NCBI RefSeq assembly: GCF_000970205.1
Contig: NZ_CP009512.1
Location: 620,001 to 684,000 of the forward strand
Length of the DNA: 64,000 nucleotides
Origin: Methanosarcina mazei S-6
Lineage (GTDB): Archaea; Halobacteriota; Methanosarcinia; Methanosarcinales; Methanosarcinaceae
Direction: 5' to 3'
The position numbers were made by a program, and so were the translations under genes. Positions 7,041 to 19,283 of this stretch are shown piece after piece. The notes beneath the pieces were generated by a model. That model ran no database searches and was not told the DNA's origin. It saw only the letters and a list, made by a program, of their open reading frames with translations. How positions within the stretch are numbered: the stretch's first letter is position 1; the number at the start of each line of letters is the position of its first letter.

Positions 7041-8222
7041 ATGAAAGTGTATGATAGTCCGGTGATTAAGGTAAACGCCAGCACTGAAAATGAAAAGGTG
7101 GTGCTCGACGCAGAAGGACCTCTTTCCCATATTGTAAAACCCTTTCTGAAACGTATAAATAATATTTTTTCGGAAGAAAAACCAATTTCAATAAACGAAG
7201 ACGAGATTATATTTTCTACCTGGATTCCTCCTATTCCCGGCCCTGTTTTTAGCCGGGTTATAAGCGCTGAAATTGCAGCCATAAGGAAAAAACGTGTCCC
7301 GGATCAATTTACAATAGGGATTACTGCCCGATGTCCAAATAACTGTATCCACTGTGGGGCAGCCGGCATAAAGCCTGAAAAGGAATTGACGCTTGATGAA
7401 ATCTGCAATGCTGTTGATCAGAGCATTGAACTTGGGTCCTATCTGGTCGCCTTCGACGGCGGAGAGACGATGATCAGAAACGATCTCGTTGATATGGTCT
7501 CAAGGGTAGACAAAACAAAAGCAATTGCCACATGTTTGACTTCAGGCTTCAAACTATCCGAAGAGCGAGCTGCTGCACTTAAAGCTGCAGGCCTGTATGC
7601 CGCCAGGATCAGCCTGGACAGTCCTCTTGAAGCCGAGCATGACCGTATCAGAGGTCGTAACGGCGCATACAGAGACGCGATCGACGGGATTAAAAATGCA
7701 GATGCTGCCGGAATCCTTACAGACATGTTTGTTGTTGTTTCCCCGCACAATATTGATGATCTTGAAGATTTCTATTCCCTCGCAGCTGAGCTGAACGTAA
7801 AAGAAATGTCAATTTATGAAATCATTGCAGTAGGACGCTGGCTTGAACACGAGGATGAAGTAATAAGCGATAAGGATGTATCCAGGCTTAAGGATTTCCA
7901 GATAACAATGAACAACAAACCTGAAGGTCCCAGGGTCACAGCTTTTCCCTATTTTATGGGTCCTGAGCTTTTCGGGTGCTTTGCTGGAAGGCGCTGGATG
8001 CATGTTGCATCTGACGGAGAGGTCATGCCCTGTGCGTATACTCCGCTTTCTTTTGGAAACATATGCGAGGAGCCTCTGGAAACTATCTGGAAGCGCATGG
8101 GTAAACACAGCGCGTATAAGAAAGATAATGCAGCTTACTGCATGATGCGAAATCCGGATTTCAGGAAGAAGTATATACATACCATCCCCACCGGATCCAG
8201 AATTCCATACAGGGTTAAATAA
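7041..8222 (+). CDS. radical SAM protein with C-terminal SPASM-like region
   Basis: The 393-aa protein has the radical SAM motif C-P-N-N-C-I-H-C (CxxxCxxC) near residue 102, preceded by FTIGITARC, and FDGGET as the SAM-contacting GGE-like motif. RISLDSPLEAEHDRIRGRNGAY is typical of SPASM-type enzymes. Near the C-terminus, CFAGRRWMHVASDGEVMPCAYTPLSFGNI is SPASM-like, with further cysteine at YCMMRNP. The ATG at 7041 is preceded by AGGTG at suitable distance; an earlier in-frame ATG at 7014 lacks such a site. It follows the polyprenyl synthase on the same strand across the 18-bp repeats. The substrate is unknown; a role in lipid or methanophenazine modification is only a guess from position. 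Confidence 0.8.
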   Translation: MKVYDSPVIKVNASTENEKVVLDAEGPLSHIVKPFLKRINNIFSEEKPISINEDEIIFSTWIPPIPGPVFSRVISAEIAAIRKKRVPDQFTIGITARCPNNCIHCGAAGIKPEKELTLDEICNAVDQSIELGSYLVAFDGGETMIRNDLVDMVSRVDKTKAIATCLTSGFKLSEERAAALKAAGLYAARISLDSPLEAEHDRIRGRNGAYRDAIDGIKNADAAGILTDMFVVVSPHNIDDLEDFYSLAAELNVKEMSIYEIIAVGRWLEHEDEVISDKDVSRLKDFQITMNNKPEGPRVTAFPYFMGPELFGCFAGRRWMHVASDGEVMPCAYTPLSFGNICEEPLETIWKRMGKHSAYKKDNAAYCMMRNPDFRKKYIHTIPTGSRIPYRVK

Positions 8223-8846
8223 AACCTTTTAAGTTAATTAAATCTTTAAAATTTAATTAAAGATTTTAATTCACTTATTTTAATTAATCTATTTTTAATT
8301 CACTTATTTTAACTAATATATTTTTAATTAAATTATTTTAATTAATTTATTTTTAATTAATTTATTTTTAATTAATTTTTAAAAAGTTTCTATTTATCTA
8401 TCACTTCTTACTAATTTTTACAAATTTGAATTGATTTCTCACTTTTAATTAATTTTTATATATTTTAATTAATTATGCTTTCAGTCGATTTTTTTCATGT
8501 TTTAATTAATTTTTCTCTCTAATTATTTTTTAAAGATTTTTTAAAATTTTATAAAAATTTTAATTTCCTTTCAAAAGAGATTTACCTGTTCCCTGTCTTT
8601 TTTCTTTGGCTTTGATCAGGAAGTTTTTTCTTTTTGTCATCCCTTACCCCCTTTTCTCTCCTGCAGTTTTTTTCCTGGTTTTAAAGCCAGGTTTAAATTT
8701 CCAGTAATTATATTATCATTTTCTTTCTAAAATATTGTTCATTCATTAACCCTTTATCCTGTCTCCTTTTTATTTCAACGGGGTTCTTTAACCTCAGAAT
8801 TTGTGGAAATATTTTTATTACAAGGGAGCGCAGAGGGTCACGAATA
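8223..8846. other. very AT-rich spacer
   Basis: No gene is seen. Bases 8223-8560 consist mostly of TTTTAATTAATTTATTTT-type sequence, which would give the preceding transcript many U-tracts for termination. From about 8580 the composition becomes more mixed up to the IS200-type left hairpin. Confidence 0.6.
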
Positions 8847-9525
8847 CCCCAACCTTTAGGTTGGGGATGAAGTGAACCCTCGCCTCTTCGTTTTTCACTT
8901 TAAATATCTAAATCCTTACTTTTTTTGTAAAATGAGCTTGATTTGGCACCATGACCATAGGAGGTGCCAGCCGCCTATAGCCTGGATGTGATACACGTTG
9001 GAATTGAACAGTTTTAGCCATGGCTATGGTCAGATTACCTACCATCTCGTGTTGGTGCCAAAGTATCGATACAATATATTCTACAGCAAGCAAATTAAAA
9101 AGGATTGTGAGTTGATCCTCAATAACATTTGTATTGAGCAAGGCTACAAGCTTCATGCTCTTGAAATTGTAGATGATCACGTTCACTTGTTTGTGGAATT
9201 TCATCCAAGCAACTCCTTGTCAGAAGTAATTCAATACTTGAAAGGAGGAAGTTCTTACAGGCTTTTCAAACTTCATCCTGAACTTAAAAAACGATATTGG
9301 GGTGGAAGTCTATGGTCAAGTGGCAAATTCTATCGATCAGTTGGAAATGTAACAGCTGACACAATCAAACATTATATAAAGGAATCACAGAAAAAACCGA
9401 AAACAGAAGTCAAGTCCTCTAAATCAGCAAAACCTGATCAAAGAATTATTGATGATTTCTGACCCCAGAAACCGGGCGGGCGGCCCGAAGCATACCCCAT
9501 CCTTTAGGGTGGGGTGGCCGCCCGC
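8847..9525 (+). mobile_element. IS200/IS605-type element (tnpA only)
   Basis: The element is bracketed by two matching hairpins: CCCCAACC-TTTA-GGTTGGGG at 8847-8866 and CCCCATCC-TTTA-GGGTGGGG at 9495-9514. Subterminal hairpins of this kind are the recognition structures of HUH transposases. The right one sits inside a further 10-bp GC-rich stem (9476-9485 with 9516-9525). One transposase gene lies between, with no tnpB, so this is an IS200-type arrangement. The exact cleavage ends lie a little outside the hairpins and were not fixed. Confidence 0.8.
8998..9462 (+). CDS. tnpA: IS200-type Y1 HUH transposase TnpA
   Basis: The 154-aa transposase has the HUH motif DDHVHLFVEF near residue 62, the catalytic Tyr in KHYIKESQ near residue 125, and the family opening GQITYHLVLVPKYRYNIF. 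Enzymes of this type cut and rejoin single-stranded DNA at hairpin ends, moving by a peel-and-paste route. No ATG lies in frame before the conserved region, so TTG at 8998 is taken as start. All catalytic residues and both terminal hairpins are present, so the copy may be active. Confidence 0.92.
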   Translation: MELNSFSHGYGQITYHLVLVPKYRYNIFYSKQIKKDCELILNNICIEQGYKLHALEIVDDHVHLFVEFHPSNSLSEVIQYLKGGSSYRLFKLHPELKKRYWGGSLWSSGKFYRSVGNVTADTIKHYIKESQKKPKTEVKSSKSAKPDQRIIDDF

Positions 9526-12484: not shown

Positions 12485-12727
12485 ATGGTAGACGCAGCAT
12501 CAACAGGTCTCTTTTTGGACGCAGCAGGAATGAAAGCACTCGGTGCAGCAATCGCAATCGCAGTAACTGGTCTTGCATCTGCAATAGCTGAAAAAGACAT
12601 CGGTACAGCAGCAATCGGCGCAATGGCAGAAAACGAAGGATTATTCGGTAAGGGTCTTATTCTTACTGTCATTCCAGAAACCATCGTTATCTTCGGTCTT
12701 GTCGTTGCATTGCTTATCAACCAGTGA
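12485..12727 (+). CDS. ahaK: A1AO ATP synthase proteolipid subunit K (c-type)
   Basis: This 80-aa, two-helix proteolipid forms the rotor ring. Helix 1 is GAAIAIAVTGLASAIAEKD, the polar loop contains AENEGLFGKG and helix 2 holds the ion-binding carboxylate in VIPETIVIFG (Glu65). The length is that of a single-hairpin c subunit, not the duplicated forms of some methanogens. The Glu-Thr pair after proline is a position used in Na+-binding rings, but ion choice cannot be decided by eye. The gene is followed by a strong hairpin, fitting the need for many copies per enzyme. Confidence 0.95.
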   Translation: MVDAASTGLFLDAAGMKALGAAIAIAVTGLASAIAEKDIGTAAIGAMAENEGLFGKGLILTVIPETIVIFGLVVALLINQ

Positions 12728-12735
12728 TTTTACTT

Positions 12736-12916
12736 AAATTTAAGAGCGTATTTCGCTCTTAAATTTCTTAGAGCATTGCTTTAAGTTTACCTGGACTTTT
12801 TTCTCTACCAGGCAGACCTGGAGCGTTAATAATGCTCTAAGTTCCCCTTAGGTATCGTTGCACTCTAAGCAGCTTAGAGTTTTGCTCTAGGCTTTAGAGC
12901 ACTTTTTTGCTCTAAA
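12736..12916 (+). promoter_or_regulatory. hairpin cluster between ahaK and ahaE
   Basis: The 208-bp gap within an otherwise tightly packed operon holds four inverted repeats. The first is a perfect 13-bp stem with 5-nt loop at 12736-12766. A 10-bp stem joins 12768-12777 to 12831-12840 and encloses a smaller CCTGG/CCAGG stem. An 8-bp stem with loop CAG lies at 12862-12880, and a 9-bp stem (TTTAGAGCA/TGCTCTAAA) at 12893-12916, just before the GGAGGTG of ahaE. All share the element TTAGAGC/GCTCTAA. Processing, stabilisation of the upstream ahaHIK message or attenuation of ahaECFABDG would set subunit ratios; that function is inference. Confidence 0.75.
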
Positions 12917-12935
12917 TTTATTTGGAGGTGTAAGC

Positions 12936-13487
12936 ATGGGACTAGAGATCGTTGTAAAAGACATCCAAGAGGGTGCAAGAGCTGAGGTTTCCCGTATTAA
13001 AGCCGAAGGCGATGCAAAGGCCTCCGAGATAATTAATGAAGCTAAAGAAATTCAGAAGAAGACGCTCGGAGACAGCCTTGCCAAGGCGGAAGAGGACCTC
13101 CAAAGTCTGCACCAGCAGGTCATATCAAGTGCAAACCTGGAAGTTAAAAGAATTACGCTTAACAAGCGTAAGGAACTTCTAGATACCGTTTATAACCAGA
13201 CAGTTGAAAATATTAAGTCAATGCCGGCATCCAAAAAAGAAGAGCTGTTAAAAAGTATTCTCGACAAGCATGAAGCTAGCGGCGCTAGAGCTTATTCTTC
13301 TAAGGAGTCAGAAGAGCTTGTTAAGAAGTTAACTTCTCTATCTTATGCTGGCAATATAGATTCTATTGGCGGAATTGTTCTGGAAAACGAGGACAGGACA
13401 GTCAGGTTAGATTTCACATACGATTCAATCCTGAAAAGCGTTTATGAACGTTCATTGAAGCAGATATCTGATATATTATACGGGTGA
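12936..13487 (+). CDS. ahaE: A1AO ATP synthase subunit E
   Basis: The 183-aa peripheral-stalk protein has a long N-terminal helix (IQEGARAEVSRIKAEGDAKA) that pairs with subunit H, and a C-terminal globular part ending TYDSILKSVYERSLKQISDILYG, which contacts the A1 head. A strong GGAGGTG site precedes the ATG, the best in the operon. It follows the hairpin cluster, so its translation could be tuned by that structure. Confidence 0.93.
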   Translation: MGLEIVVKDIQEGARAEVSRIKAEGDAKASEIINEAKEIQKKTLGDSLAKAEEDLQSLHQQVISSANLEVKRITLNKRKELLDTVYNQTVENIKSMPASKKEELLKSILDKHEASGARAYSSKESEELVKKLTSLSYAGNIDSIGGIVLENEDRTVRLDFTYDSILKSVYERSLKQISDILYG

Positions 13488-18640: not shown

Positions 18641-18808
18641 ATGGCAGAATGCGACGATCGACCTAATCTGGTTGAAAGAGCAGTAATGAAGTTAGGTGAA
18701 CCCAAAAACCAGGCCCGCCTGTTGCAGGTGGCCTGGAGGATTTCCCTTTTAATGATGGTTATAGGGTTCATCATTATAATTAAAACAATTTCTCCAAATT
18801 TTATGTGA
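18641..18808 (+). CDS. ahaG: A1AO ATP synthase small subunit AhaG
   Basis: A 55-aa frame begins MAECDDRPNLVERAVMKL and ends with one hydrophobic helix (ISLLMMVIGFIIIIKTI) before SPNFM. It starts 13 bp after ahaD and is the last gene of the operon. Methanosarcina aha operons are known to end with ahaG, a small protein not conserved in most other archaea, and whose role is unclear. One C-terminal membrane helix suggests a membrane-attached accessory or assembly factor. The stop codon lies inside a terminator-like hairpin. Confidence 0.85.
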   Translation: MAECDDRPNLVERAVMKLGEPKNQARLLQVAWRISLLMMVIGFIIIIKTISPNFM

Positions 18809-18843: not shown

Positions 18844-18956
18844 AATTTTTGTTTCAGGCTCTCCAATTATACTTGTAATTATTATGCTTTTTTAGTCCAA
18901 GTTATCAGTTTTTCTAAACAGTTTTATCGTTTTTCCTTGATAATGTTGTCATTTTT

Positions 18957-19132
18957 CCTGAATTGTGTTATTGTTTTTCCTGAATTGTGTTATTGTTTTT
19001 CCTGAATTGTGTTATTGTTTTTCCTGAATTGTGTTATTGTTTTTCCTGAATTGTGTTATTGTTTTTCCTGAATTGTGTTATTGTTTTTCCTTATATTGTT
19101 ATCGTTTTTCCTGAATATTGTTATTGTTTTTT
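18957..19132. repeat. 22-bp tandem repeat rich in T-tracts
   Basis: Six identical 22-bp units (18957-19088), each CCTGAATTGTGTTATTG followed by five T residues, continue into two or three degenerate units to about 19132, and one degenerate unit precedes. Each unit supplies a T5 tract on the coding strand of the ATP synthase operon, 110-320 bp after ahaG. The array could act as a serial U-tract terminator; this is inference. Confidence 0.9.
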
Positions 19133-19283
19133 CTGTTCACCTGATTGTAACTTGCGTGTTTTCTACGCATTCAATCCCTGGTTCATATTTTAATCTATTA
19201 ATGATATATTACTAATGATGTATTGCTGGATGTTTTTATTATTTAGAAAGCTATTTTAATGACAAACGGTAATCTTTGCATAT

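Follow-up and report, generated by a model that had tools for sequence, protein, structure and literature searches.

A conserved RNA hairpin array between ahaK and ahaE in the ATP synthase operon of Methanosarcina

Why does the aha operon, with its closely packed genes, contain one gap of 208 nt? In the 64-kb window (the whole stretch of DNA analysed here) the operon extends from ahaH (10209) to ahaD (18627). The first-pass annotation had stated that its remaining gaps are small, and they are indeed at most ~6 nt or overlapping: ahaI-ahaK is 4 nt and ahaE-ahaC 6 nt, ahaC-ahaF and ahaF-ahaA overlap, ahaA-ahaB is ~1 nt, and ahaB-ahaD is ~5 nt or overlapping. The long gap (12728..12935, + strand) lies between ahaK (12485..12727, +), which encodes the proteolipid (c) subunit (Pfam PF00137, E 4e-16), and ahaE (12936..13487, +; Pfam PF01991, E 2e-18), the first A1 subunit gene of the operon. 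It bears on how archaea make unequal amounts of ATP synthase subunits from one operon. We find that the gap is a conserved RNA structure that occurs only at this site, is under selection on the sense strand, and keeps its place between a stop codon and a ribosome site.

The predicted fold energy of positions 12720-12960 is -83.9 kcal/mol, compared to -56.4 (sd 4.4) for dinucleotide shuffles (z -6.3; 0 of 200 shuffles as stable). The first hairpin, S1 (12736..12766, +), begins 8 nt past the ahaK stop codon and has a perfect 13-bp stem formed by AAATTTAAGAGCG and CGCTCTTAAATTT; it is the longest perfect short-loop hairpin in the window. Next is a long hairpin, S2 (12767..12841, +), with an outer stem (12767-12777/12831-12841), an inner stem (12778-12794/12808-12824) and a U6 run (12797-12802). 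The conserved linker that follows, TTCCCCTTAGGTATCGTTGC (12842..12861, +), is invariant at 11 of 20 positions in 18 species, and may pair weakly with 12866-12870 in the modelled structure. The 3′ block (12862-12916) consists of successive words with alternative pairings: H-a (ACTCTAAGC-A-GCTTAGAGT; 12862..12880, +), which excludes H-b; H-b (GCTTAGAG..CTCTAGGC; 12872..12892, +), which excludes both H-a and H-c and is in the RNAalifold consensus; H-c (12883-12901); and the terminator-like H-d (TTTAGAGCA-CTTTTT-TGCTCTAAA; 12893..12916, +), with another U6 run (12903..12908, +) in and beside its loop. Because several of these hairpins are mutually exclusive, at most ~4-5 stems of the gap can coexist. 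H-d is the last stem before the ahaE ribosome site and stops 7 nt 5′ of its Shine-Dalgarno sequence GGAGGTG (12924..12930, +), which is invariant in core species, so the annotation correctly placed the end of one stem just before this site. Its description of four stems with TTAGAGC/GCTCTAA in common holds in part: the stems are related in their words, but each exact word occurs only twice, and other stems use the variants TTAAGAGC/GCTCTTAA, CTTAGAG/CTCTAGG and CTCTAAG.

Tandem, related palindromes in an intergenic region recall palindromic repeats of the REP/BIME or MITE type. Unlike these, the gap hairpins are not dispersed. The pattern TTAGAGC-N3-14-GCTCTAA has a single occurrence in the 4.14-Mb single-contig genome, at the ahaK-ahaE gap, and the same is true of TTAAGAGC-N3-14-GCTCTTAA. 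The gap sequence itself is single copy in the source genome and, weak matches aside, single copy at ahaK-ahaE in the other Methanosarcina genomes searched. Among 112 genomes of the family, TTAAGAGC-N3-16-GCTCTTAA was identified in 62, with exactly one copy in each, and a reversed control pattern in none. Wherever positions were compared, the TTAAGAGC..GCTCTTAA stem follows the ahaK match of the genome concerned by no more than ~75 nt. A mobile or dispersed palindromic repeat is rejected, since no species searched has more than one such locus in its genome. An Rfam search of the gap returned nothing near a gathering score. The case shows that an RNA element located inside an operon and missing from Rfam can remain at one locus across an entire family. 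Three Methanosarcina genomes (G003, G005 and G015) encode a second ahaK copy, 86-95% identical (L128, L129 and L130); no ahaE and no hairpin array were found 3′ of these copies.

All Methanosarcinaceae loci examined that have both genes, from 14 genera, carry a hairpin downstream of the ahaK stop codon and upstream of the ahaE ribosome site; these loci come from a selection of the genomes left after setting aside those with no match or with broken contigs. Three other families sampled from the same class have a gap of 6-30 nt and no such hairpin. The gap in the single-hairpin genera of Methanosarcinaceae mostly measures 44-64 nt, with 105-125 nt in g9 and in a single g13 genome; the hairpin is usually ATTTAAGAGC-loop-GCTCTTAAAT. 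Its stem mostly begins 0-5 nt past the stop codon and ends 7-9 nt before GGTG. The stem sequence is changed in genera g6, g8, g9 and g13, with pairing kept. In Methanosarcina and genera g4 and g5 the gap extends over 175-267 nt and span-limited folds show four to seven hairpins; the array is present at all loci of this clade where both genes were found. S1 corresponds to the lone hairpin of the single-hairpin genera and shares its sequence; most array hairpins are variants of one core.

On a tree of AhaE (95 rows), the three states require two changes, the minimum possible, with no losses, and the array is gained once (support for the array clade, 100/96). AhaE identity to the named Methanosarcina relatives is 84-91%. 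The hairpin thus probably arose once, as a single copy, in the ancestor of Methanosarcinaceae, and a single local multiplication would have followed in the common ancestor of Methanosarcina and its two sister genera. Versions with zero, one and many hairpins exist naturally, in a clear evolutionary order, and the locus is a small, precise natural test object in a genetically tractable methanogen. Around the start of the array (12716-12735), TAA abuts or opens the first stem in many species. The C-terminus of AhaK differs between species because the stop codon shifts relative to S1.

The pattern of substitution indicates that the RNA structure is under selection. All 14 array loci tested have fold energies below those of shuffles (z -3.4 to -10.4). 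In S2, 7 pairs have changes on both sides (17 such cells in the S1+S2 structure, a count reached by 0 of 500 shuffles), and the family hairpin has 6 cells changed on both sides (again 0 of 500 shuffles). Slid controls for the family hairpin give similar double-change counts, but pairing of only 32-54%, compared to 93%. This covariation removes the doubt, raised with the annotation, that pairing might not be conserved across relatives. One-sided changes in the stems favor G-U over A-C (single hairpins, 15:3; deep arrays, 33:4), although in these and other species counts the species are related and so not independent. The excess points to selection on sense RNA pairing rather than on DNA. A DNA operator, i.e., a palindromic protein site, is rejected because the arm deviations are strand-biased in these ratios. 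In the 3′ block, H-a has one compensatory change (U-A to C-G) in a sister genus; H-b has slightly higher pairing than H-a, and varies mainly from A-U to G-U. The mean major-base frequency over the last 74 nt of the gap is 0.98, compared to 0.90 for fourfold sites of ahaE (18 core species).

What, then, might the structure do? The order of stop codon, 0-5 nt, stem, 7-9 nt and GGTG, at the AO/A1 junction, suggests an element that uncouples two parts of an mRNA. We propose, with moderate confidence, that the gap is a boundary element that separates the fates of the ahaHIK and ahaECFABD mRNA through protected ends after cleavage and translational insulation. It would divide the membrane-sector genes ahaHIK from the catalytic-sector genes ahaECFABD on one polycistronic mRNA. 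Endonucleolytic cleavage could occur in the A/U-rich linkers between hairpins, after which a hairpin would cap the 3′ end of the ahaHIK mRNA against 3′-5′ decay, and the 5′ end of the ahaECFABD mRNA would be similarly capped against 5′-3′ decay. The hairpins would also prevent ribosomes that have finished the heavily translated ahaK from continuing into ahaE, and ahaE would keep an accessible ribosome site. Most likely, the two halves of one mRNA would be expressed at different levels.

There is precedent for such a function. In bacterial operons, with E. coli unc among those listed, subunit ratios are set by selective RNA processing and stabilisation (SRPS) with stem-loops (PMC4423207). As in SRPS elements (cip-cel of Clostridium; puf, unc and malEFG; PMC4423207), the gap has intercistronic stem-loops where products are needed unequally, with hairpins at the 3′ end of the most-needed gene, and a stable stem-loop lies between genes of one protein-complex operon. 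It differs in being archaeal, in having a tandem array of related hairpins and a locus-locked stem sequence, and in that processing is a proposal here. According to an older microarray result for M. acetivorans cited in PMC2838876, ahaECFABD is two-fold up on acetate and ahaHIK is not; the break as reported there falls exactly at the ahaK-ahaE gap, and counts for the boundary element. However, RT-PCR of ahaI, ahaC and ahaB indicated a general rise, with aha transcripts ~two-fold higher on acetate (PMC2838876). This result shows no sign of a break between ahaK and ahaE, conflicts with the microarray, and counts against the boundary element. Also against it, boosting the entire ahaHIK segment would raise H and I, which are needed in few copies, and the stem sequence is conserved beyond pairing, although pairing alone would suffice for a simple exonuclease barrier or insulator.

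The first-pass annotation linked the gap to the many copies of subunit K that the enzyme needs, and proposed processing or attenuation as the means. Processing or differential stability at the gap is plausible. The copy-number rationale is doubtful: sister families also need the c-ring yet lack the element, so a universal need of it for many K copies is unlikely. There is also no internal termination in the ATP synthase operon of Methanococcus maripaludis (PMC10450193) and, together with the absence of the element from related families, this makes K dosage alone an insufficient reason.

The position of the hairpin would also suit a purely translational insulator, in which a stop-proximal hairpin blocks re-initiation from ahaK to ahaE and plays no role at mRNA ends. 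The stem starts within 5 nt of the ahaK stop in most single-hairpin species, and in most Methanosarcina the first stem begins with the stop codon or directly beside it (the distance is 8 nt in the window). Insulating structure of this type is known in bacteria: in a synthetic operon of E. coli, hairpins near the stop codon insulate translation (PMC7518266). Like this ribosome termination structure, the gap has a stable structure that directly follows a stop codon and precedes the ribosome site of the next gene. However, the former is a general structural signal of bacteria, and the gap is sequence-conserved, confined to a single locus and expanded to an array. A single hairpin would suffice for insulation, so the expansion to several is unexplained, as is the conserved stem sequence. 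We consider insulation alone possible but unlikely.

As the stems are conserved in sequence and not only in pairing, a dedicated binding factor is conceivable. The AGAGC-loop-GCTCT stems could be protein recognition sites, possibly for an ATP synthase subunit acting on its own mRNA, and the array would then multiply the sites. Both 9-nt arms are identical in 25 of 46 single hairpins, across genera, the stem occurs only at the ahaK-ahaE locus, and most array hairpins vary on the same core. On the other hand, there is no candidate binder, and the loops vary, so the stem itself would have to be recognised; stem sequences are, moreover, altered in genera g6, g8 and g13. This reading, drawn from sequence comparison, seems to us somewhat less probable even than insulation alone. 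If true, a dedicated RNA-binding factor, possibly itself a subunit of A1AO, would adjust the AO:A1 ratio of the ATP synthase, and Methanosarcina would have amplified one site to a multi-site array, a case of autogenous ATP synthase control in archaea.

Attenuation, the other means proposed in the annotation, finds little in the gap. Partial termination of transcription, or attenuation, between the two genes would act via the U-runs, and three sense-strand matches to a stem plus T-run are present in the gap, compared to 0.6 expected for the region. U6 or longer runs were found in 33 of 33 array gaps, and internal termination is common in M. maripaludis operons (PMC10450193). However, U6 is about equally frequent in shuffled gaps (0.54-0.95), so the conserved U-tract enrichment of archaeal terminators is not seen, and U6 is mostly missing from the single-hairpin species. 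Archaeal terminators do not require hairpins, and the minimal aCPSF1 site is two U4 tracts (PMC8716108), which are not a conserved feature of the gap hairpins. The internal operon terminators (ioTTS) of M. maripaludis (PMC10450193) resemble the gap as cis elements inside an archaeal operon with proposed unequal expression, but they act through U-tracts and aCPSF1, and the gap is not enriched in U-tracts. Terminators inserted at the K-E and F-A junctions approximately halve the growth rate of M. maripaludis (PMC10450193). We therefore regard termination at the gap as improbable. A TTATAAT-like stretch near 12828-12833, which might have indicated an internal ahaE promoter, is not consistently conserved (by eye).

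Finally, the related stem words had been read as a switch. In a model of this kind, TTGCACTCTAAG (12858-12869) would alternate between two pairing partners, the ahaE ribosome site and GCTTAGAG. TTGCACTCTAAG is strictly conserved in core species and is the favored partner of the ribosome site in most of them, and the RNAalifold consensus pairs the two. However, the ribosome site is sequestered to the same extent in shuffled gaps (in the window, unpaired 0.20 observed and 0.18 shuffled), and 238 of 300 shuffles form a duplex with it at least as strong as the best one in the window. For core species the duplex is weaker than in most shuffles, and the TTGCACTCTAAG-ribosome site helix has no informative covariation. 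As shuffled gaps sequester the site equally and form duplexes at least as strong, we do not accept the switch, and consider it very improbable. In most species the ribosome site shows chance-level or lower complementarity, as would be expected of a site that must stay open.

The start of ahaE also carries a sequence that resembles the hairpin word. Codons 3-4 (12942-12947) are CTA GAG in all loci read from core Methanosarcina, g4 and g5; the deep Methanosarcina group has CTA GAT, and sister genera mostly have CTT/CTC GAA. CTA makes up 3% of Leu codons in nine neighbouring genes. Pairing of the hairpins with these invariant CTAGAG codons is limited to 5-6 bp.

Several other features were identified near the operon. 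Directly 3′ of ahaD is a small ORF (18641-18805, ~55 codons), hydrophobic in its C-terminal half and without a Pfam match. Upstream of the operon, an IS200-type transposase gene (8998-9462; Pfam Y1_Tnp, E 5e-36) is flanked by short G/C-rich hairpins (near 8850 and at 9495-9515), as in an IS200/IS605-like element. Very A/T-rich tandem repeats of the TTTTAATTAATTTAT type (8252-8540) are located between a gene ending at 8222 and this element. Downstream of the operon, a tandem array (18924-19135) comprises 9.7 copies of the 22-bp unit TTATTGTTTTTCCTGAATTGTG.
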